A DNA stretch of 64,000 nt. Origin: Thuidium tamariscinum (lineage: Eukaryota > Streptophyta > Bryopsida > Hypnales > Thuidiaceae). The translations under genes and the position numbers were made by a program. Of this stretch, positions 7,020 through 26,225 are shown piece after piece; positions within the stretch are counted from its first letter, which is position 1; the number at the start of each line of letters is the position of its first letter. The stretch covers positions 27,160,386-27,224,385 of the forward strand of contig OX344752.2 in assembly GCA_947034885.2 (NCBI GenBank), read 5' to 3'. The notes below the pieces were generated by a model. That model had not been told where the DNA came from and searched no databases. It worked only from the letters and a program-made list of their open reading frames with translations.

Positions 7020-9779
7020 TCATTCTGCTGTCCAGCTTTGCTCTACAATTTCTCGCACCCTCCGGTTGTACTCACGACGATTTTCGCTATACATGCGTGC
7101 AGCCTCAGAGTTTGCTGGTGAATTGGGGTTTGGATCACACAACAAGGACTGCATAAACATGATACATTAGAGAAATGGTGAATATATCGTGAGCATTGAA
7201 TTCAGGCAAAGTGGAATCCCAATCTTGGTGAAAGAATTTGAAATGCCATTTATCAAAAACATTCAAGGCCTCATTTAACGTTCCAAATCACCTATTTCTC
7301 ACAAACACGAAGAAAAAATGAAACAAAAATCTCAGTTAGCTAGATAACACCGAAGCTATTATTTATTAAGATGTGGTTTCAGAAATAGGGTGGGTGCGAT
7401 GAGTGTGGTTGAAGCATAAGGCATAGTACATGTCATCGATCCATAGAAAACAATCAATCGATACATCTCTTTTTCTCGGAATACTTGAGGCACAGATAAA
7501 TCTCTCTAAAAAAAATACTCAATATTTGATTGTGACGAACTTGAATGCACATAGGACATTCATAAAAAATTATATACCCAATCAATTCATACACATTAAG
7601 ACTTCTGCTTGACTGACAGTTGTTGGAATCAAAAAGTTCACCTGAATTGAAGTGAGAATCGCTGCCACATCGTATATTGGGCTCCACTGATTTTGCAGAA
7701 TGTCTAGGCAAATACTCCCATCCGCATATACTGATTTGCCACAACTAGCATTGTGAGAAAACAGAGACAAATGCAATTAAAGTTTAATTTTCACAAACCA
7801 TAAGTACTTCTGCTACTCTTGTCGAATTGAAACTGATAAGACAAAGATCTCCCACTGATAGAAAAACGATTAGTAAACAGCAATAGTGAAAACATCATTG
7901 ACCCAGAATGCCTGTTGCGCACAAAAACATATCCAAAGAGAGTATTCGGAATCACTGTACATCTACAACTAAAACAGAAAAGATCATCAAAGTCAAGAGC
8001 AAAAATCACAAAAGCTTACTATTAGGATGAAACATCTTGGAGACAAATCGTACAGTTGGAGGCTTATTTGGATAATCCTCCGTAAATTGCAAAGTCAACT
8101 TGAACGTTCCTAATGAAGAAAACCAATAACAGCTTAGACAATGTTCAACGATGAAAGGCATTTGCCAGACACAAACCCTAATTGCACACTGATAAATTTT
8201 GAGTGAGAGCACAAACCGCAAAACCTAGAAATCATGAAACAAGACTATCTACTACATACGTTTAAGAAAGATTTTAAGAAAATATTATGCACTACCCACG
8301 ATCAAACATAGATCGCAGCAACAACTAAAATTTTGAATGATTCTTCAAGTATAGATGTGTGAAAAATGAGTTGAAGGAGAACCAGACATACCTCCGTCCC
8401 ATGGAGTATCATCAGGACTGCAAAACATAAAGCAAAGTTCACATTAGGTTTCAACATCATCGTACAGCGACCATTTCTGGAATTCTTTGAACCAAGAATG
8501 AAAACAAGATGACTTCAGAGGTTCAAGGCCGATGCGTTATAGCCTCCAAACGATTCCTACTCTAAGAATACCAATACTATTGCCAAAAACCCCTAAAGAT
8601 GGAAGAAACTGTTGCTCTATACCTCCATGGTATCCTAAAGTACTAATTCTCTCTCACAAAAACAGACGCAGTGGCCTTCGGCAAAACATACAAGCGTACA
8701 AAAGCCTTAATGGCGAGATACTCTGAGAAATTGCAACTAAGACTCTTATTCTTTAGGACTCTATAAATATCAGAACTACTGAACTGCTTGATTGGCTTCA
8801 AAAGAACCCGCAACTGTCACAAAGAACTTACAAGAGAAGGCCCGCTCTTCTTTTCTCATGGCTATAAGAATAAAGTAAAGAAATATTTGCAAGATCTTCA
8901 ACCACTAATATTCGTTGAGCCCCAGATTTGAACGTATGCGCGACGCAAAAATATTGAATTCGAGATCTAATTTTTTCTATATGTAGCTATTTTGTTGACA
9001 CTGAATAAACCCTATTTAATCGCTACAATTCGGACGCAACACGACTAACACCTTAAGAACAAGAACAACTCCGACATTTTTCAAAAGACCAGTACATGTT
9101 GCTACTTAATTCGAACACAAAATACTTAGTTCGAACACAAAAAAACAATATACCAAATTTGCACGCTGACAATCTACTCGTCACAGACGCTATTTCTGTA
9201 GAAACCCCAGATAATCACTACGAATCTATGCAACACCTCCAAACATTGCTCAACAACCGACACCCTTTCTTATCATTCAAATAAACAAAATTACATAAAC
9301 AACACATATAAATTCCAAAACAACAGACGCAGAACTCCAATTACATTTCGGCTGTCGATTTCGCCCCAACACAGCCTATTTCTGTTGAACACAACAAACC
9401 CTAGATACTCCCTACAACCCATACGCAACACCTCCACTTCTTTAAAGAACAAGAACAAATTCAACCTTACCTAACTGTTACAAATTACCATCCAAAACAC
9501 ACAGAAATGAACGAACAAAGCCTTGATTTCCAACACTCCAAACCCTACGCACGCTACCAATTGCTCCTCATCCTCCCAGTCAATCGACTCCAGAGATGCA
9601 AGACTCTACTTCGATGAATTTTGGCCAAAACTTAGTTACCCAAAAATGCGTTACCCAAAAATGACCGCGTTCCAGAGCATGATGTTGTTGTCCTGCGGAG
9701 CTCCGCTGATGCCTGCTGGCGGATCATGCTGTAAGCGCTTGAAGTCACGCATCAACCGCTTTCGGGACGGGGTCGACAT
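7020..9779 (-). CDS. UBC2: Ubiquitin-conjugating enzyme E2, RAD6/UBC2 type
   Basis: Five exons on the minus strand join exactly in phase: 9779-9655, 8417-8392, 8109-8020, 7730-7642 and 7148-7020, giving 152 residues, the usual RAD6 length. The protein begins [17 protein letters not shown], has the HPN motif at residues 78-80 and the catalytic cysteine at 88 in [10 protein letters not shown], and ends EQSWTAE. It lacks the acidic tail of yeast Rad6, as plant members do. RAD6-type E2s accept ubiquitin from E1 and, with RAD18 or BRE1/HUB-type ligases, modify PCNA in damage tolerance and histone H2B in chromatin. The start is fixed by homology; the ATG at 9779 opens a GC-richer first exon. The longer frame upstream of that ATG has no family counterpart. 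The second exon is only 26 bp. Confidence 0.96.
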
Positions 9780-10023
9780 GATGGTCGCCCACCTTTCCTT
9801 TGCGCCGGCTGGCGATCGTTCTTCTTCTCTTCCACTTTGATAGAGACTCAATTCTTCACTTCGCAATTGACATGTATGGCTGTCCTGGACAAGAAAGGCG
9901 TCAAGCTAGTGGCGATGGCTTCGTAAGGTGATGCAAAGGCTGGATATGAAACCCTAAAGCTCGCCTGCTCCTAGAGCTCATGTAGCTCTTGAGGAAGTCA
10001 AGGCATGATCCCCACCACGGGCA

Positions 10024-10577
10024 TTCCCATCCCTATCCGGATGAAATTCATCCAAAGAGAACGGAAGAGTCAGTATCCTCCGTCCATCGTGTAAGTAGGA
10101 CAGTCACGGTAAACCCAAAACCCTTAAAACCTACTTCCTGGGTTGCGTTCCTTTCTCGCCCTCTCCACCATCGCTGGTTGACTGCACATCTGTCATCTCT
10201 CTCCATTCTATTGAGTGCCTTATTAGCGTTCGTCCCCTGTCTGTTGCTTTCGCAACGCGCGCCTCGTTTTTCAGCGTCACTTTCACGCTCTCTCTTTGCT
10301 AACACATTTCCCTCGTTGACACGAGCTTTTTTGCAATCTTTGGAGCGAGGTTTGTGACCAAGGAGCGAGTTTTTTTCACTGCGGTCTCGTGATCGGTGGT
10401 TTCCGAGGCCTTTGTTTGTGCGATTTGAACACTTTCCAGTGGATTAGCATGCCGTGGAGTGTTTGGTGCTATTTGCACTATAAGAAAATTGTGTTTTAGA
10501 TGACGAATTTTAAATGACATCCAATGATGCAACCCATGTTTTTATGTCCAAACTAATGTCCACCATAACATCTTGAT
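10024..10577 (+). repeat. Left copy of 554-bp direct repeat flanking the hAT element
   Basis: 10024-10577 and 15957-16510 are the same length and differ at only about three positions, all transitions. The left boundary, TTCCCATC, is the 8-bp sequence that directly follows the hAT right terminus at 15956, so the repeat starts at the presumed target-site duplication. The right boundary lies in the middle of a CACTA foldback element. The repeat is GC-richer than its surroundings and resembles a promoter or 5' UTR. It lacks TG..CA ends and any primer-binding site, so it is not an LTR. Confidence 0.85.
10476..10577 (+). mobile_element. Left half of a CACTA foldback miniature element
   Basis: Starts with CACTATAAGAAA and matches the first 102 bp of the complete element at 16409-16604, then stops four bases beyond the hairpin centre and passes directly into hAT sequence. 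The 3-bp junction overlap is GAT. It exists only because it lies within the 554-bp duplication. Confidence 0.8.
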
Positions 10578-12076
10578 CCCAGAACTGGCTAATTTGCGCC
10601 AAATTTTTACTTAAAAAAATTTCGTGCTAAAGGTACATTGTGGAAATCAGGGACGAATGAAGATTTTGAGCCAGAATTTGCAGGAGCCGACAGACGAGCT
10701 CGCAAATCCTCAGATTTTGAAATCTACAGGTAGCATAGATTCGCAACCGGCAGCTTCAACTAGTCACAATCTTGCGATCTGGTCCATTGATGAGGGAGCC
10801 GGGTGGCTAAATCGAACGGTCGAGATTAGCCCACAGCTGCCGCATTGGAGGGCTGAGATTCGCCAAGGGTTTTAGATCGTGAGGCTGGGATTTAGCCAGG
10901 GATGCGGATGTGGGGTTTAGGTTTAGGGAGGGGGGATTAGCCCATCTCCCTCCCTGAGCCTCCCCCCAGTAGCAATACTCCTCTGAGCATCTTGCATTAA
11001 TTCTCCTTCCTCTGACGATTTGCATTAATTCCTCGCTGTTGCTCAACTCTTGAGCATGGAACCTTGGATCCTTTTCATCATAACGTATTTCTTCAAAATT
11101 TCATGGTTTCCCTCCTTTGCTGGGGAAGCTGTTGTGATGCTCATCAGTTTGAAATTCTCAAAGCGCGCTTCAAAATTGGGAGGCGCCACCGTGCCACAAT
11201 GCCCACTTCCTCCCTGCTGTCAAATTCTTGGACAGTTTGGGGATCAATGGTGCGCCCATTGCCCTGGATCCCTGACTCTTGCATTTACTGCAGTTTGGAA
11301 TTGGAGGCACGTTGAGGCGATCAAACGGTTGCATAATCAGACATATAAGGTAAGAAGACTTCTCATTCCTCACAGTTGATCAAAGTTCTTTGTAATTTTC
11401 TTGCTCGTTTGTGTTTGGTGGTATGCAATCTCGCTTTGCTAGTTGGCGATACAGTTCTGTTGTTGGGCGATCTCGATGTTGGGCGATCAAATTTTGCTGT
11501 TGGGCGATCAAGCGATCAGCCATCTGGTTTGCAATTTCTCTCTTTTCTTGCGGTTCATGTACAGCTGCTACATTTTTCTTTTGTTCCACATTTTTTTTGG
11601 CTCCACGTGAGCTTGCACAATCTTGTACTTATTGTCTTAGGGTGGTCTTGGGGTGTTTGATTGTGCTGCAGGACCTCAAGCGTCTCTATTATTGCTTTCA
11701 TGTTTTGTTGAATTTGTTTTCCCTTGTGCGCTACTTTGGATATTGGGGTGTTGGGGGTGGTTGAAAACTTGAGGTGCAGGTGTACAGAGTCGATGGCGCC
11801 GCGTTTGAAACTGCTAGAGAACTTCCGAGTGAAGACATTTGGATCTAGCCGCAACTCAAGTGGGGTGGGAAATATTTACTCCCCAACTCGCATCCGGTGG
11901 GCTGCGATGGAGGGATGGAAGCAGACGTCGAGATCACACACGTCTCCGAAACCCGCACATCGCAGCTTCTTGGGGTTCTTCCGGATCGGAGTGCTTTCGG
12001 CTCCGACGTCACTGTGGTCTCTCCGCTCACTCCAATTTCTGATGTCGGGGGCGATGGCGCCGGCGACGGGTAGCAT

Positions 12077-14856
12077 TTGGGGAAACGAAGTCACGAGCCT
12101 GCCACAGTTGGGCGGAAACGTTCCAAGACATCTCCCAGTACCGTCACTCGAAGGTGGCAGGAGGTTTGGGCGTGTAAGTTCGCCTGGGCCGAGGGTCAAT
12201 TCAACGGGGACGGCGATATTGTTGGTGTCGTCTGTCGTAGTTACACTTCGATTACGGGAAGGCAGAAGGTGTTGGTCCCGAAAGTCGACAATCTAGAGAA
12301 ACACGAAGGTAAGCGGGTCTGCCGAGAAGATGGAGTTCCTTTCCCTCATCTAAAGAAAGGTGATGTTTTTGTAAAGCATGATTGCCAGCACCTTCAGTTT
12401 GTCAAGCTGTGGGCGGCACAGAAGAAAGCCACGATTGTAGCTAACCAACTGCAAGGGGAATTGGAGGGCGAGTTCAAGAGGAAGCAAATCCAATTCAGCA
12501 CCCTCTTGCATATTCTGGCTCATGGTCGCCCCATGTGCGATTATGAGTGCCAGGAGTAGTTGCTCAAGCAACTCAAGGTAAGAAACCTTCCCTGTAAGCA
12601 TTGGTCTGAGACAACAAGCTGGGAGATGAGTGAGCATCTTCATACCTCTGTATTGTCTGCTTTGAGAAACGTTGTTTAATCTGCGTCTATTATTTCCTTT
12701 AGTGCAGATGAGGTCATGGCTGTTGATGGTACATCTTGGCTAGGAGTTCACGTTTACACAATGTCTTCTTGGGAGAGAATACCTCATCTTATGCTCTTAT
12801 TGTGCGTTTCTGAGAGCAGGACAGCAGACCACTTAATTGATTTGATTATGCATAGTTTGTTTGATGAGGGAGGGCTGAGTCGTGAGGAAGTTGCTAGAAA
12901 GTTGGTTTGCTTTGGAGCGGACGGTGTAAGCACATTTCAAGGACCACGGACAGGAGTTACTACTCAAATCCGAGAGAAATGGGCTCCCTTTTTGATAGAA
13001 GCCAGTTGTGTTAGCCATCGTTTGAATCTTGCAGTAGAAACTATGTCTAAGTTCCCTATGATCTCACGGCTCAAGGGTTTGTTCCAATCCATATATAGTT
13101 ACTTCTGCCGCAGCAACAAGCGGCATGCTGAGTTGCATAGACTAGCTGATTTGATGGAAACTAAGGGCAATAAAATGCTCCGTAACGTTGAAACTAGGTG
13201 GATTTCGATGCGAAGTCCTGCTCCTAGGATCCTATCTGAGTACCGCACTTTACTCGTGAAGATGGGGGCCGATATGACCTCTGGGCCTAGAACGAAGGCT
13301 GTCCCTAGGGCAGCCGATAACTTCGATATGCTCTTCGATATTGAGCTGCTCCTGTCGCTAGCGTGCTTTATCCCGCTTGTGAACTCCGTGCACTCGTTGA
13401 TAAAACTATCACAAGCTCGTGATATCTTCGTTGGGGATTTCCTCCAAGCCTTGAAAATTTGCCAAGAGGAGGTTGGTCGTATGTTTGTAGATGCATCCAC
13501 TGCTTTTAACAAAGTGGATTTCCCCTTTTACAATGATTTGATTGCTCTGACCAATTCCAAAATTCCCTTAGTGTGGTGTCAACAACCTGGTGACAGTGGC
13601 ATTTGCCATTTGCTATTCAATTTCGACCATGCCCAGATGTTTGAACGATGCCATGACAAACAAACTGGGGCTCATTTGTTTGTCACCCAAGAGCAATACA
13701 ACAGGGTGCAGGACAATGTGGAGCGACAATTTTCAAGTAACAATTTTTTTTTTCTTTGATGTTTTCTTTGAAGCAAAATCTGTTAGTGTTACCTCTGTTT
13801 GTTTATATTCGAACTTGCATACTTTAACTGAGTTAGTTAACTTGAAAGCTGAAGCAAGTCTTTGATGCACTTGTTGCCGAATTTTTTTGAAACTACCTTT
13901 TTTTGTAGACTGCCATTTATCCCAAACCGGTGCTAAACTGTTGACTTTTTTTGCTCTCCTTTCGGTAGCTTTTCTGCAGGGTTCTTGTGATTAGATATGC
14001 TTGAGCTGCCGAGTCTTCAGGCGGTCTCTGCAGTTAGTATTTGAATTGGTTTCATAATGATAGATCTGAGGTTTTCAATTTGCTTTGGGTTCTTTGCTTA
14101 AATGTGACCTGCTTTGGCTAGCTTGCTTCCATTTTCGCAGGTATGTCAGCCTCTAGTTGCTTTGAGACTTGGCCTACTTGCTTCCTGTTTTGCAGGAATG
14201 TGAACCTCTGCTTGCTTTGAGACTGATGCCTTGTCCTTGACTGTGCAGAAATCGCCCAATCTTTGATATCTGAACTTGACCGCAGGTTTCCACAACAAGC
14301 TTTACTTGACACTTTTGGGATAATTTATCCTCAGTATTGGCGACAGGATGGCGCTGAGGAGAGTTTTGGCCATCATTTGGCAGTGTTGAAGGATTTCTTT
14401 GCAGTAGCAAAACCTGTGAAGAATGGGCAATCGGTTCTGGCTGGTGGGAAGCCGTATACTGCGCCCGAGATGCTGTCAGCGTCCAATTTGGACAACCAAC
14501 ATCACCTATTCAAAGTCACAATGAGGTCCAATGCAGAGGCTGCTTGCGGCCCTCCTTATCACATTAACCCTGTCATTAAGTTATGGAGGAAACTAGATCA
14601 ATCACTTCACTTGCGAAAGTTGATCTCTGAGTATTTCAAACTTGTTGACATAGGATGTTGCCTTGTTCTTGGTTCAGTGGAGGATGAGAGATGCTTTTCC
14701 AATCTGAAGTTTCTGAAATCATGCCAAAGAAATAGATTAGGGAAACACTTACCCCTTGTTGTGCGCATGTTTGGTCAAAACTACTTCTCTCTTGACAATT
14801 TTCCTTACAAGGAGGCGATTGAATCATGGAAAAGTGCTGTAAAGGTTGGCAGATAA
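12077..14856 (+). pseudogene. hAT transposase gene, two nonsense codons
   Basis: The first exon runs to 13736 and the second is 14249-14856, joining as S-K-I-A-Q. The N-terminal part has a zinc-finger-like Cys/His region (CKFAWAEGQ to KHDCQH, about 12160-12400). Then come the RNase-H-like core with MAVDGTSW and CFGADGVSTFQG (acidic residues), ASCVSHRLNLAV and VETRWIS. The C-terminal dimerisation region has DERCFSNLKFLKSCQRNRL. Between the two long open segments the frame stays continuous through 12560-12707 in hAT-like sequence (HWSETTSWEMSEHLH). It is interrupted by TAG at 12557-12559 and TAA at 12677-12679, so there is no intron there. Both stops are one C-to-T change from Gln codons. The true start is unclear: no ATG opens the frame, and an upstream exon is possible. 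Confidence 0.85.
14108..14236 (+). repeat. Two-unit tandem repeat in the hAT transposase intron
   Basis: Two units of roughly 55-60 bp share 'gcttcc...tttgcaggwatgt...cctct...tgctttgagact'. Each carries a pyrimidine tract followed by TTTYGCAG that resembles a 3' splice site, placed just upstream of the acceptor at 14248. Confidence 0.55.
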
Positions 14857-15014
14857 GGGGATGCTTAAAGTAGAGCAAAGGCTGTAGAAGTAGTATCCTA
14901 AGTTTCTTGTTATGGAATTTGATTTCCTTAGTTTTCATGAGATTAGGCTTGACTTGCAACTCAAGTTTACCTTCATTCCCAAGACAGCAATTCAGGTGGT
15001 GTTTCAAGCTGGTG

Positions 15015-15145
15015 GTTCGTGGATCTGTCTGCAAGGCTGGGGGCGCTTTGTGTGCGAGGCTGGGGCGATGGCGCTTTGTCTGCGAGGCTGGGGGGGCCGT
15101 GGGGCTCTATCTGCAAGGCTTGGGGATCTGTCTGCGGAGCTTTCT
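15015..15145 (+). repeat. G-rich subterminal repeat of the hAT element
   Basis: Four or five degenerate units built on 'ctgtctgcaaggctgggg' and 'tgcgaggctgggg', with runs of four to seven G on the plus strand. hAT elements often carry subterminal repeats as transposase-binding sites; that role is inferred. The G runs could also form quadruplexes. Confidence 0.55.
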
Positions 15146-15529
15146 CACTACAGCGTGCAGTTGTTTGGAGAACAGATGTGGCTGAGCGGTGAAGCAGCTG
15201 CTGCAACTTGGTGTTGGAGTTTTTATTTTCTAACCCTCTAATGTGTGCTGTTTGTTTGGTGTTGTGCAGATCACTAACACTACAAAATGGGCAGTTCATA
15301 GGGTTCAATTCCCTTGTTAGTGCATATCAGTTTTATGGAGTTGTAGTATTAGTATTGTGTTAGGTTTAGACATTAGAGAAATTTAGAGTTACAACAATAG
15401 TATTTCATGTAACTTGTATTTATTCAATTCAATTTGTATTCATCTTTTTGCAATGGCATGTTTCCTTATTGTCACTTTGATTGAATCAAATTGTTGCAAC
15501 TTCTGTATGACAAAATCCAACACTGACTT

Positions 15530-15800
15530 CTATATAACTTAGCAAAAAAAAAATGGAATTATAATTTTCAACTTCCACTTAACTTAATCTTGATAGCAAC
15601 TTAGACAAAAAAAATTGGAAATGTAGTTTTGGCCTTCCACATAACCTAAGGTTAATAGCAACTTAGCCCAAAGAAAAAAAGGACAATTAGTTCTTGTCTC
15701 ACACTTCATTTTTCTTTGATAGAAACTTTGCCAAAAAAAATTTGTAAAATTAGCTTTCTACCTTTCACTAAGTGGTAATAACTGTAGCAAATTTTTTTTT
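15530..15800 (+). repeat. A-rich subterminal repeat of the hAT element
   Basis: About four degenerate units of 70-80 bp share 'tagcaacttag..aaaaaaaa', then 'ttgg/ggaa', then 'ttccactt..ctt'. They lie 150-430 bp from the right terminus, where subterminal motifs are expected. Confidence 0.5.
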
Positions 15801-15956
15801 ACTGAAAATGAAATATGTAGATAAAAAACAACATTTGAAAATGAAGATTATCTGTAGACTTCCATCATTCAGAAATTATGTGGCCACAATGGCTCCCCAA
15901 TGGGCCACCGTCATAGCGGTTTAACTAATTCTGGGAAAACAGTTCTGGGATCGCTG

Positions 15957-16510
15957 TTCCCATCCCTATCCGGATGAAATTCATCCAAAGAGAACGGAAG
16001 AGTCAGTATCCTCCGTCCATCGTGTAAGTAGGACAGTCACGGTAAACCCAAAACCCTTAAAACCTACTTCCTGGGTTGCGTTCCTTTCTCGCCCTCTCCA
16101 CCATCGCTGGTTGACTGCACATCTGTCATCTCTCTCCATTCTATTGAGTGCCTTATTAGCATTCGTCCCCTGTCTGTTGCTTTCGCAACGCGCGCCTCGT
16201 TTTTCAGCGTCACTTTCACGCTCTCTCTTTGCTAACACATTTCCCTCGTTGACACGAGCTTTTTTGCAATCTTTGGAGCGAGGTTTGTGACCAAGGAGCG
16301 AGTTTTTTTCACTGCGGTCTCGTGATCGGTGGTTTCCGAGGCCTTTGTTTGTGCGATTTGAACACTTTCCAGTGGATTAGCATGCCGTGGAGTGTTTGGT
16401 GCTATTTGCACTATAAGAAAATTGTGTTTTAGATGACGAATTTTAAATGACATCCAATGATGCAACCCGTGTTTTTATGTCCAAACTAATGTCCACTATA
16501 ACATCTTGAT
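15957..16510 (+). repeat. Right copy of the 554-bp direct repeat
   Basis: Matches 10024-10577 with about three transitions. It starts immediately after the hAT right terminus with TTCCCATC and continues without a break into the rest of the CACTA foldback element, so this copy is the original arrangement of the locus. It may include the promoter or 5' leader of the gene at 17057. Confidence 0.85.
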
Positions 16511-16604
16511 GTTATGGCGGACATTAGTTTGGACATAAAAACACGGGTTGCATCATTGGATGTCACTTAAAATTCGTCATCTAAAACGCAAGTTTCTTAT
16601 AGCG
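16409..16604. mobile_element. CACTA-type foldback miniature element 1 (196 bp)
   Basis: Begins CACTATAAGAAA and ends TTTCTTATAGCG, with the two halves almost fully complementary along their length; the apex is near 16506/16507 within ATAACATCTTGATGTTAT. TTG precedes (16406-16408) and follows (16605-16607), the 3-bp target duplication typical of the CACTA (En/Spm) superfamily. It has no coding capacity. Confidence 0.85.
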
Positions 16605-18009: not shown

Positions 18010-19210
18010 GGACCGTTTACTCCCCTCCCGGGAATTGATGTTGTTTTACCTCAGCTTGTCATCACTTTTATTCTGGTTGGTCGCTCAAGTGCCGCAGTTT
18101 ATCAGCAACTGGCACCTGCGGAGTGCGGAAGCTCTTTCTGCGTGGGTCCTTTTCCAATGGCTTGCGGTGTGCATTTCTGTCTTGTAACGTTGTTTCTTTC
18201 TCTTTTCGTAGCTGACAAAGGCTTTTCGATGTACGGAATGCTAATGGTAACATTGAACTTACTTAGGCATTGTCCTTCTTTGGTTTTGTTACTAAGGTTA
18301 TGAGAGTGAATTCATGGTAGGATAGCATTTTAGGCCCTTCTGTAAATTATTACAGTGGGAGTGACAGGAAGTTTGTTATCTTTGTGGAGCACAGAGGCTG
18401 TGTAAAATTAACTGGTTACAACGATGTGAGACAGAGGATGCTGGACTGGTAGTCACCCTTCTAACTGTCAGGATGCTGGACTGGTTGTCGTTGGAGGATG
18501 ATATTGATAAAGGAACGCTTGCTATCTGTGAAGTTCCCATTGAATAGCCAAAAACTGTAATATACAATATGAATGGTTGCTTTGTTCGGCTTAGGTTTCT
18601 TCGTCTCATATTGTAACTACTCCGACCGTTAGTGATGTCTTGTATTACTGTATGACCACAGTGTTCTGTAAAGGTTCTCTTACTCATTTATTCCGCAATT
18701 GTCACCATTTATGGCGATACCTTCAACTTCCTTGGATGTCTTCTTACTGGAGACCAGCTTGCAACTCAGAGTTTGTCAGCCAGCTACTTTATATTTGCTG
18801 ACTTTGTAGTTATTATCCAAGTGAGTTGCTCTCTTAAAAATTAAAGAAAGGTAATTTGATTCTTTGAAGCAATTAAGTAATTTCATTGCAAGGGCAGGTG
18901 AGTTCCAACTTTAGCTTGATGGTATTTAAATATTGTTAGTGCAAATTCTTTTTTTCAGCGCTCATCTCTTTAATCACATAGGTGATGGAACTAATTATTA
19001 ATGCAATCGTTTTTTTGATAATTCTCATCGATTGAGTTTTCCCGTTGTGCAATGTGTACTTATCTGACTTGGATACAATTATTTGCACCAGTAAATGTAT
19101 TATGAGAAACCGCATGATCAGGAAAAAGTGTTGTTTTCTAAATATGAGGATTCAAAGCAACCGACGCTCGAAGGCTCAGTTGGTCGGAATTCGATAATCA
19201 AACCACTATA
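18010..19210 (+). pseudogene. PQ-loop repeat membrane protein gene, decayed
   Basis: Three segments match successive parts of plant PQ-loop (lysosomal/vacuolar cationic amino-acid transporter-like) proteins. The first, about 18010-18166, has the PQ motif in FWLVAQVPQFISNW and then SAEALSAWVLFQWLA. The second, about 18713-18820, reads GDTFNFLGCLLTGDQLATQ and a hydrophobic helix. The third, about 19092-19210, reads YYEKPHDQEKVLFSKYEDS. The first has a usable donor at 18167 and the second a good donor at 18821, but no AG acceptor adjoins the second. The third begins with an in-frame stop just after its acceptor, and a CACTA element is inserted at its end. I found no second PQ motif downstream, so this is probably a truncated pseudogene. 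Another open frame upstream (about 17870-18010, RPLFRIHHGPLKKRG) may belong to it. Confidence 0.6.
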
Positions 19211-19472
19211 AGAAACCTCTGTCTTTGGTGACAAGCCCTAATTTTTTATAACAGATTTTAGGTGATGTCAATGCTGACAACTCAAAAACTTTATGTTAAC
19301 AAAAATGTTCAATGTAACATCAATGTTAACATAAAAACATTGGACTATCAGCATTGATGTTACATTGAACATTTTTGTTGACATAATTTTTTGGATTGTA
19401 AGTATTGACATCACCTAAAATCCATCATAAAAAATTAGGGCTCGTCACCAAAAACAGGGGTTTCTTATAGTG
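19204..19472. mobile_element. CACTA-type foldback miniature element 2 (269 bp)
   Basis: Perfect terminal inverted repeat CACTATAAGAAACC / GGTTTCTTATAGTG with long internal complementarity (for example ATTTTAGGTGATGTCAATGC on the left and its near complement on the right). The flanking 3-bp duplication is AAC (19201-19203 and 19473-19475). It interrupts the PQ-loop gene relic. Confidence 0.9.
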
Positions 19473-23935: not shown

Positions 23936-25500
23936 CAGCGATCCCAGAACTGCTTTTGCAGAATTAGTCCGGGGGCTATACCCGTAGGTATAAGGATGGC
24001 TAATCCCGTGACTTGGTAATTCCGTGGGAGAAAGTCTCTGAGAAATTTGAAAAAAAATTGTAGGATAGTGAATTTTTTTTTCTTTAGTAAAGTCATTTTT
24101 GCTACAAACAAAGGTACTACGTGAATCGTACATGGCTATTTGTTGCCCTTTTCAATGGATCCAGTTGCCAAAAAATGAGTGACTTGCTTGCTGAAATTGC
24201 TCAAATATGAGTGAGTTGCTTGGTTTTTTGGTCAAAAATGATCACTTACTTGTTTGTTGTACATATGCACTTGCACAAAGTACACTTAGTGTTAAAATTC
24301 AAATTTTTGAACAAAATGAAAAATTGTGAAGTGTTTGTCTTTTGAAAACAAAGCCAAAACTGCCCACTAACTTGGGAATTGAACCCAACTTACATAAAGC
24401 AAGACCGCCCCAATTGCAGTATTAGTGTCATGTACACACTAGGCAAACAACCCACGTTAGAAGAAAAAGTTAGAAGTAAAAGTATCAAAAATCGCAGAAG
24501 GGCTCCCAGCTGCGAATCTCCCACAAGCCTCAGCTTCATGGCGTCCAATCTCCTACTCCACCTTGTGTATATGCGGTTGATGGCACATACGGCCCAGAAA
24601 CTTTGAATGTCAAGAAACTCCATACTTGAGATTCAAAGCCAGGATAATCTTATGAAAACTAAGGATTGTAAAAGAAGAGGATACTGTCGTGTAAATTACA
24701 CGTCCCCCATGATGGCCCACCTTCACAACATTCTTCCAAGAATCAATGGCGTGCTTATAGGGAAAAGTGTCCAGAGAATAGTAACTTTGCCCAAACATTC
24801 GCACCACAAGTGGCAAATGCTTATGCAGCTAATTCCTTTGACAGGACTTCAAGAATTTCAGTGTTGAGAAGCAACGCTCATCCTCCACGGAGCCCAAAAC
24901 CAGACAACAGCCTATCTCGACAACTTTAAAGAATTCAGAAATCAAGTTCTGTAAGTGTCGTGACTGATCAAGGCCTCTCTACAATTTTATGACCGGATTG
25001 ACATGGTAGGGCGCTGTCAAAGCAGAGTCAGCATTGGCTTTCATTGTAATTTTAAACATGGACTGCTGATTGTCTAATTTAGAGGCAGATAGGATTTTGG
25101 GAGCAATGAATCCTTCATCATTAGAAGCTACTCCACCCATGACAGGCTTCAAATGACAGTAAAATTTCTTGAGCAATGCCAAGTGTTGAGGAAAACTTTC
25201 TTCAGCTCTGTCATGTTTCCAGTATTATAGGTAAATGATGCCAAAGGCATCAAGTAACTCTTGTTGAGGAAATCTTTTCTCCAACTCATCACAAAGTGAT
25301 TGAGCTATCTCTACCAAATCCAACACACCCACATCAAACTCATTAGAATATGCACTTCCAAGTTTCAACAACCTACCAAAATTGAATAAAAAAAGATACA
25401 AACTAGACTTACAACTAGGCAAAAAAAAATGGGAATGGTATTGAAAAACCTCCATTGCTATCAGTAATTGGAAAACCTCCACTGCTAATCTGTGACTCAG
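23936..25500 (-). mobile_element. hAT transposon copy 2, 5'-truncated
   Basis: The left edge CAGCGATCCCAGAACTG (from 23936) equals the terminus of copy 1 and continues similarly (gcagaattagt). On the minus strand, about 25320-24620, the C-terminal transposase region appears: IAQSLCDELEKRFPQQELLD, AFGIIY, SASKLDNQQSMFKITMKAN, YHVNPVIKL and LVVRMFGQSYYSLDTFPY. These fall in more than one frame, so the copy is decayed. The N-terminal two thirds and the other terminus are missing. The element starts 22 bp beyond the P4H stop codon. Divergence from copy 1 is clearly larger than that between the 554-bp repeats. Confidence 0.8.
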
Positions 25501-25734
25501 ATCCAAAAAACACTAGGACCCAAAACCTACAGTGCAGAGCGTGCACCTAATGATTTTGAGGGAGATAGACTAAGTTGGAATAGGGGCCCCGGTCCATGGT
25601 TTTCATCTGAGAGCTCGGAGACGGAGTATTCCTCCGCTATTGAGCTCTCAAATGCAAGCTCTTGTCCTCCGTTTGTGGAGTTGCTTGAGAATATTCATAC
25701 TGATAGGTTTTATACGGAAGAGTCATTATCCTTA

Positions 25735-25960
25735 CACTAGAAGAAAAGCCTCAAAATCTGCATTTGTTTCAACATAACGCGTCAAGTGAGTTATGTTGAA
25801 ACAAACACAGAAAACGTAGTGAAAAAGTGGGAAAACGTAGAAAAAAGCATTGTTTTGCGTTTTTCCACTTTTTCATTGTGTTTTCTGCATTTGTTTCAAT
25901 ATAACTCACTTGACGTGTTATGTTGAAACAAACGCAGATTTTGAGGCTTTTCTTCTAGTG
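25735..25960. mobile_element. CACTA-type foldback miniature element 3 (226 bp)
   Basis: Terminal repeats CACTAGAAGAAAAGCCTC / GAGGCTTTTCTTCTAGTG, with almost complete complementarity of the halves (TTTCAACATAAC and GTTATGTTGAAA blocks). The flanking duplication TTA is at 25732-25734 and 25961-25963. It splits an open stretch (25492-25734, ending TEESLSL) from a downstream acidic SDSDEDDD-like stretch. These might be a former exon, but the frames do not agree across the site. Confidence 0.9.
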
Positions 25961-26225
25961 TTAGCTCGGATTCTGATGAGGATGATGACATAGAGATTAT
26001 AGAATAGTATCTCTTTTATTATAGAGTAATATTACATATGCATTTGTTACCAAACATTCTCAAAGAGGCTTATTTTTTGTTAGAGATGCTCTGGACTTCT
26101 TTTGTGCTATCATACCAAGTTTTTTTAATTAAAGCATATTTCATTGCAATTTGAAGTGACATCAATTACTATAACCCTTAGCTCATTGTTTTCGTGAATA
26201 AGAAAGGTTGTACTAAGGATTGCCT

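Follow-up and report, generated by a model that had tools for sequence, protein, structure and literature searches.

A hAT-like element between two direct repeats that run from its target site to the centre of a foldback MITE

In the 64-kb window, which is the whole stretch of DNA analysed here, a 5.4-kb hAT-like element is located between two direct repeats of 554 bp each (Table 1). Aligning the two copies bore out this arrangement, which a sequence-only reading of the locus had proposed. The repeat identity extends from the first base of TTCCCATC to the end of a GAT, and the left boundary of the repeat is the first base past the right end of the hAT element. TTCCCATC is present only at 10024 and 15957 in the window, in agreement with the earlier claim that the repeat starts at the 8-bp hAT target site. 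The right boundary lies 3 nt beyond the 2-nt centre of a palindrome. The same reading had placed this end at 16510, near the apex of a hairpin; the position is correct, and the offset past the centre is 3 nt instead of the 4 nt it gave. As it had also noted, the copies are little diverged: they differ at three positions, all transitions (10228 G/16161 A, 10536 A/16469 G and 10564 C/16497 T), which corresponds to a divergence of 0.54%.

Table 1. Coordinates of the features at the locus, counted from the first base of the 64-kb window.
Feature	Position	Strand	Remarks
Left (derived) repeat copy	10024..10577	+	Three differences from 15957-16510
Lone clean TTCCCATC, start of left copy	10024..10031	+	Second copy or footprint absent beside it
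Half MITE: left arm, 2-nt centre and at most 3 nt more	10476..10577	+	98% identical to MITE positions 1-102
GAT shared by the MITE centre and the hAT left end	10575..10577	+	TGAT 10574-10577 if base 4 = T
hAT-like element, left end without CAG(C), right end intact	10574..15956	+	Genome end matches
Long open frame inside hAT element, presumed transposase	12716..13759	+	No Pfam match
Further open frame of hAT element, presumed transposase	14263..14856	+	No Pfam match
Intact right terminal repeat, CAGCGATCCCAGAACTG on minus strand	15940..15956	-	
TTCCCATC adjoining hAT right end	15957..15964	+	
Right repeat copy, original downstream context	15957..16510	+	C10 paralogue (L003) aligns both sides of MITE
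Complete CACTA-type foldback MITE, TTG on both sides	16409..16604	+	196 bp
Palindrome centre, TT	16506..16507	+	2 nt

The right end of the hAT-like element reads CAGTTCTGGGATCGCTG and then TTCCCATC, and its left end reads ACATCT-TGATCCCAGAACTGG. Matches to these ends in the same genome number 38 on the left and 34 on the right, the window's own included. We read 30 left and 30 right loci, and for 23 of the 30 left loci a right partner could be assigned from its position. The flanking target bases agree at 7-8 of 8 positions in 17 of the 23 pairs, and those of L013/L046 agree, by eye, after a one-base shift. The 8-bp match is absent in the window element (L009) and in L012, L014, L022 and L035, the last four of which have a poorly located end or possibly a wrong partner. 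The family has the 8-bp target duplication of hAT elements, and its left ends read CAG[C/T]GATCCC or close to it, beginning with CA(G) as hAT terminal repeats do. Four open frames, three of them inside the element, found no match in Pfam at E up to 0.1, and two of the in-element frames still found none at E up to 10. The longest frame gave two chance-level matches in the PDB (E 0.4 and 1), and its single-sequence structure prediction was too poor to use (mean pLDDT 41). Since the in-element frames have no Pfam match, the hAT label rests on the ends and the target sites.

A related hAT right end occurs in the window at 23936, inverted with respect to the first element (91% over 33 bp), and positions 24715-25275 on the minus strand match the presumed transposase region 14263-14856 at 68% of DNA positions. 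A simple pattern search for the left end of this related element (23936-25275, minus strand) found none. Elsewhere, the hAT ends of L015/L040 and L021/L060 are 13 and 24 kb apart with target bases identical at 8/8; these two probably carry later insertions inside.

The palindrome at the right boundary of the repeat is formed by a MITE with the ends CACTATAAG, of which the window copy finishes with TAGCG. Its hairpin arms (16411-16505 and 16508-16602) are 95 nt long and 95% complementary, with a folding energy of -96.7 kcal/mol, where shuffled sequences average -18.0. Identical 3-bp flanks were found in 23 of 28 full MITE copies elsewhere. The MITE combines CACTA ends, a 3-bp target duplication and a foldback, as expected of the CACTA type. 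Genome-wide, 443 places match the MITE centre with at most 3 mismatches, and the reversed control matches none.

At the junction between the left repeat copy and the hAT element, the terminus of the element is incomplete. Among the 29 other left ends of the family, scored partly by eye, CAG stands before [C/T]GATC in 21, five are one mismatch off (L037, one of these, in a shifted register) and three, L014, L031 and L038, have neither form. The first 61 query bases are unmatched in L014. Base 4 of the element is C in the nearest relatives (L010-L012) and T in most others. Judged against these relatives, the window element has lost CAG, with an overlap of TGAT, if its base 4 was T, or CAGC, with an overlap of GAT, if it was C; up to 7 hAT bases are missing if the overlap is assigned to the MITE. 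The idea of a truncated left end, joined non-homologously over GAT, had been put forward from the sequence and stands, with the overlap read as GAT or TGAT and the loss as CAG or CAGC. GAT by itself is weak evidence, since 6% of random junctions should show an overlap of at least 3 nt. Loss of CAG(C) by point mutation was ruled out, as the bases before GATCCC match the MITE consensus ACATCTTGAT. We also dropped the idea that the loss of CAG is unique to the window copy, because L031 and L038 are without CAG too, with TGATC kept. The left ends of these two loci start at TGATC, and they may be further one-sided events.

The octamer that directly precedes the junction, ATCTTGAT, scores like a target of the window hAT family, a likeness that the sequence-only reading did not take up. 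The Hermes target pattern nTnnnnAn (PMC10368747) fits 12 of the 18 family target sites, each pair being counted with a single spelling, versus 9% of window octamers. When each site was ranked by a leave-one-out matrix, 13 of the 18 fell within the top 3.7%. ATCTTGAT fits the pattern and belongs, as does TTCCCATC, to the top 3.5% of window octamers; in TTCCCATC itself, the T at position 2 fits and position 7 is not the A of the pattern. The octamers at the two flanks are different and mark the exact bounds of the duplication, as alternative transposition or unequal exchange between two insertions would predict. We weighed a rather improbable alternative, namely that the hAT left end inserted at ATCTTGAT, at the MITE centre, by alternative transposition, or that two hAT insertions 554 bp apart recombined unequally, and that CAGCGAT was lost later between two GATs. 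Duplications from reversed-ends transposition in maize have no Ac at one breakpoint and show 8-bp target duplications (PMC3744419), and L031 and L038 indicate that loss of the terminus can occur at other copies. Transposition leaves an intact terminus, however, whereas this junction has the target-like octamer and no CAG(C), so a further loss of 7 bp would be required. Searching the genome for the left junction in one orientation of the MITE, we found one weak place for an intact hAT left end at the MITE centre, with 3 mismatches. The 64-kb window also holds no second, compatible reversed element nearby: with its right end at 23936 inverted, the related hAT element faces the first one with the same (right) end, and the two do not make up a reversed 5'/3' pair.

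Among the 23 left/right hAT pairs compared, a flank repeat starting at the target site was found at the window element only; the comparison is weak for four of the pairs (L012, L014, L022 and L035), in which one end is poorly located. Flank repeats at other copies, namely 347 bp at 75% identity in L018/L066, 70 and 41 bp in L011, 22 bp in L026 and 30 bp in L027, do not begin at the target site. An independent tandem duplication into which the hAT element inserted later was ruled out, because the 8 bp left of the element match at only 1 of 8 positions.

A diverged paralogue of the repeat (L003, C10:3113854-3117190) allowed us to ask which of the two copies is the original. L003 lacks the MITE but aligns to the right copy on both sides of it, at repeat positions 156-452 on the near side and again past it, so that it represents an empty MITE site. 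Because this alignment spans the MITE site, the right copy keeps the original downstream context, and the left copy runs into the hAT element. L003 has no match for the first 155 repeat bases, nor for the left flank at 8001-10023. At the first differing site, L003 has G; at the third, all 28 of 28 other MITE copies have C, agreeing with the left copy against the right; the second site varies in the MITE family (18 G, 10 A). The G of L003 and the C of the MITE copies place two of the three changes in the right-hand copy. In L003, the segment paralogous to the repeat stands in front of a gene, which we take to encode a protein resembling a universal stress protein. The 2.6 kb past the window MITE matched C10 at query positions 32-343 only, and the L003 gene was not seen beside the window copy.

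The differences between the copies also bear on whether the structure is an assembly or chimeric-read artefact at the hairpin, which we consider very improbable. Palindromes are difficult to sequence, and this gives the suspicion some ground. The junction overlap of 3-4 bp should nevertheless be too short for an assembler, and the copies differ at three sites, at one of which the 28/28 other MITEs side with the left copy.

The left repeat copy ends in half a MITE. We classed 69 MITE copies in the genome, of which 45 were classed from listed hits by hits in both orientations, 20 from 32 listed exact arms that had no listed mate and were new to the set, and 4 from foldbacks read directly. Both arms are present in 66 copies, with damage in some (L105, L108 and L127), and the other three are halves: the left copy in the window, L008 (C2:43424475) and L109 (C2:32635486). 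Each of these halves ends within 3 nt of the centre, and L008 and L109 within 2 nt, in a sample that is small and non-random and in which the arm pattern of the second set lies close to the centre and favours centre halves. By our own arithmetic, uniform breakpoints would put about 8 of the 196 positions within 3 nt of the centre. The missing half of L008 was not found in the 3.1 kb read around it, a stretch that contains one complete neighbouring MITE, and that of L109 was not found in about 0.5 kb beyond. In L008, 400 bp separate the full MITE from the half; we found no second copy of this stretch, and the search returned 43- and 50-bp matches only. Further candidates were rejected as halves. 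C2:26536483 has both arms, as does L092:201, in which one end is altered, and MITE arms 1.2 and 1.9 kb apart proved to be, in each set, two complete foldbacks.

On the basis of these observations, we propose, tentatively and at close to an even chance, that the structure was made by a single end-joining event, in which the broken hAT left end met a MITE centre broken on a copy of the locus that was not interrupted. At the start, the hAT element would be inserted at TTCCCATC. Its left end would be cut or broken free, perhaps by the transposase, with the loss of 3-7 terminal bases. The uninterrupted copy, which may be the homologue without the insertion or the sister chromatid, would break 554 bp downstream, at the palindrome centre of the MITE, possibly when a cruciform is cut at its base and the hairpin tip is opened. 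The hAT left end and the MITE-centre end would then be united over GAT. In the product, the uninterrupted copy would supply the sequence up to the MITE centre and the occupied copy that from the hAT left end onwards. With these two origins, the duplication must span from the target site to the hairpin centre.

The evidence for end joining comprises the start of the repeat at the target site with its clean TTCCCATC, the termini and 8-bp duplications confirmed by the family, the endpoint at the MITE centre (0-3 nt from the 2-nt centre, where a palindrome-centre break should fall), the two further centre halves and the downstream context of the right copy. The points left to explain are why a hAT terminus and a palindrome centre are the joined ends. 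Transposase cutting would account for the former. As for the latter, opening the tip of a resolved cruciform would yield an end at the centre, and a stalled polymerase should stop at the hairpin base. In a review of human palindrome translocations, breakage is always at the centre and proceeds through diagonal cleavage, tip cleavage and end joining (PMC4940405). Hairpin-capped breaks via cruciform resolution have been argued for yeast inverted repeats (PMC3855049). No footprint is present in the left copy, and this would make a partner that was never occupied, or copying from the right-hand target copy, more likely than a sister chromatid that lost the element. For end joining, a single cell must have suffered both breaks and must have held an uninterrupted copy next to the occupied one; the match of ATCTTGAT to the hAT target motif is then a coincidence.

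The structure and the junction would be the same if the left flank, once freed by the break at the left end of the hAT element, had been extended by copying 554 bp of template into the MITE and then joined to the hAT end over GAT. We consider this unlikely, though less so than an insertion at ATCTTGAT. The copying could begin with invasion of the right flank via the 8-bp TTCCCATC, or of an empty allele via long homology. In rice, filler DNA of 1-123 bp after transposon excision is explained by SDSA (PMC4423477), and fillers from a few bp to several kb have been described (PMC5023962); gaps at animal TIR elements are filled from nearby sequence with short microhomology (PMC8277862). By our own reasoning, copying should stall at the hairpin base and not at the centre, unless the displaced strand, having folded onto itself, was trimmed at its tip, and the 8-bp priming is superfluous if an empty allele is present. 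Sequence alone cannot tell joining from copying, as repair synthesis can give an identical product.

The sequence-only reading had suggested an aborted excision, in which the broken flank primed on the 8-bp target duplication, stalled at the palindrome and switched template. The break at the hAT left end, the non-homologous join and the palindrome at the other endpoint survive from this proposal, which is thus supported in part. Priming on 8 bp is unneeded, because a hAT end joined to any uninterrupted flank copy starts the duplication at TTCCCATC. A stalled polymerase is the less apt explanation, since the whole left arm is kept and the endpoint lies, as in L008 and L109, at the centre instead of the base (about 10476), where by our reasoning a stall should leave it.

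The locus has parallels in several known systems. Like human PATRR-type rearrangements, the locus combines a breakpoint at a palindrome centre with non-homologous joining; unlike them, the partner here is the end of a transposon, carried by a copy of the same locus, and not a second palindrome, and the palindrome is a MITE (PMC4940405). As in maize Ac/Ds duplications and re-replication, a hAT element sits between direct copies, one endpoint of which is the target site. Here, in contrast, the second endpoint is without an intact terminus and a proven 8-bp target, and a suitably oriented second element was not found in the 64-kb window (PMC3744419, PMC4270019). Re-replication itself, in which an excised hAT end inserts near a fork, the flank is copied twice, and the fork is aborted in the palindrome and its end joined, seems to us highly improbable. 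The internal junctions of the maize cases include some with homology of 0, 3, 4 or 9 bp (PMC4270019), but those cases involve two nearby element ends and composite insertions, from which a single element with 554 bp differs. Grass filler DNA and SDSA resemble the locus in that a breakpoint lies a few bases from a transposon end and DNA, of sizes that reach several kb, is added there. They differ in that here the element remains, and the added DNA is the flank past the other end, stopping at a palindrome centre (PMC5023962, PMC4423477). Gap filling at animal TIR elements likewise captures nearby sequence at a transposon with short microhomology; those captures are inside the element, and this one is outside the left end (PMC8277862). 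Judged by titles and the openings of abstracts in the part of the literature covered, no paper describes the joining of a hAT end to the centre of a MITE. The scar is genuine, and the break-and-repair routes that meet in it are already known.

A transposon end and a palindrome centre, both fragile structures, are tied together here in a single readable scar, which implies that a transposon-bounded duplication can arise without a second transposition. We further suggest, as a possible but doubtful extension, that the MITE foldbacks serve in this genome as natural sites of palindrome breakage, and that their centres open in the manner of PATRR cruciforms and their hairpin tips join other broken ends, including hAT ends cut by transposase. 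If this is true, the hundreds of near-identical MITE copies form a natural series for measuring palindrome breakage. With 443 MITE-centre places, breakage at the centre is testable by a plain count of half-copies.

We notice several other variations among the foldbacks. At the MITE centre or next to it, L105, L108 and L111 have a short deletion or insertion. In L127 (C6:24238060-24238360), the right arm of the MITE is interrupted at MITE position 153, beside CAGGGCTG, which we take to resemble the end of another transposon, perhaps a hAT insertion. On C1, L123/L124 and L125/L126 are pairs of complete foldbacks, 1.2-1.9 kb apart and mirrored, as if a hairpin stood at each end of a larger element. 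In the window, a second foldback of 269 bp with the ends CACTATAAGAAA locates at 19204-19472, and an inverted repeat at 25731-25964 has 115-nt arms that are 89% complementary, with 4 nt between them.
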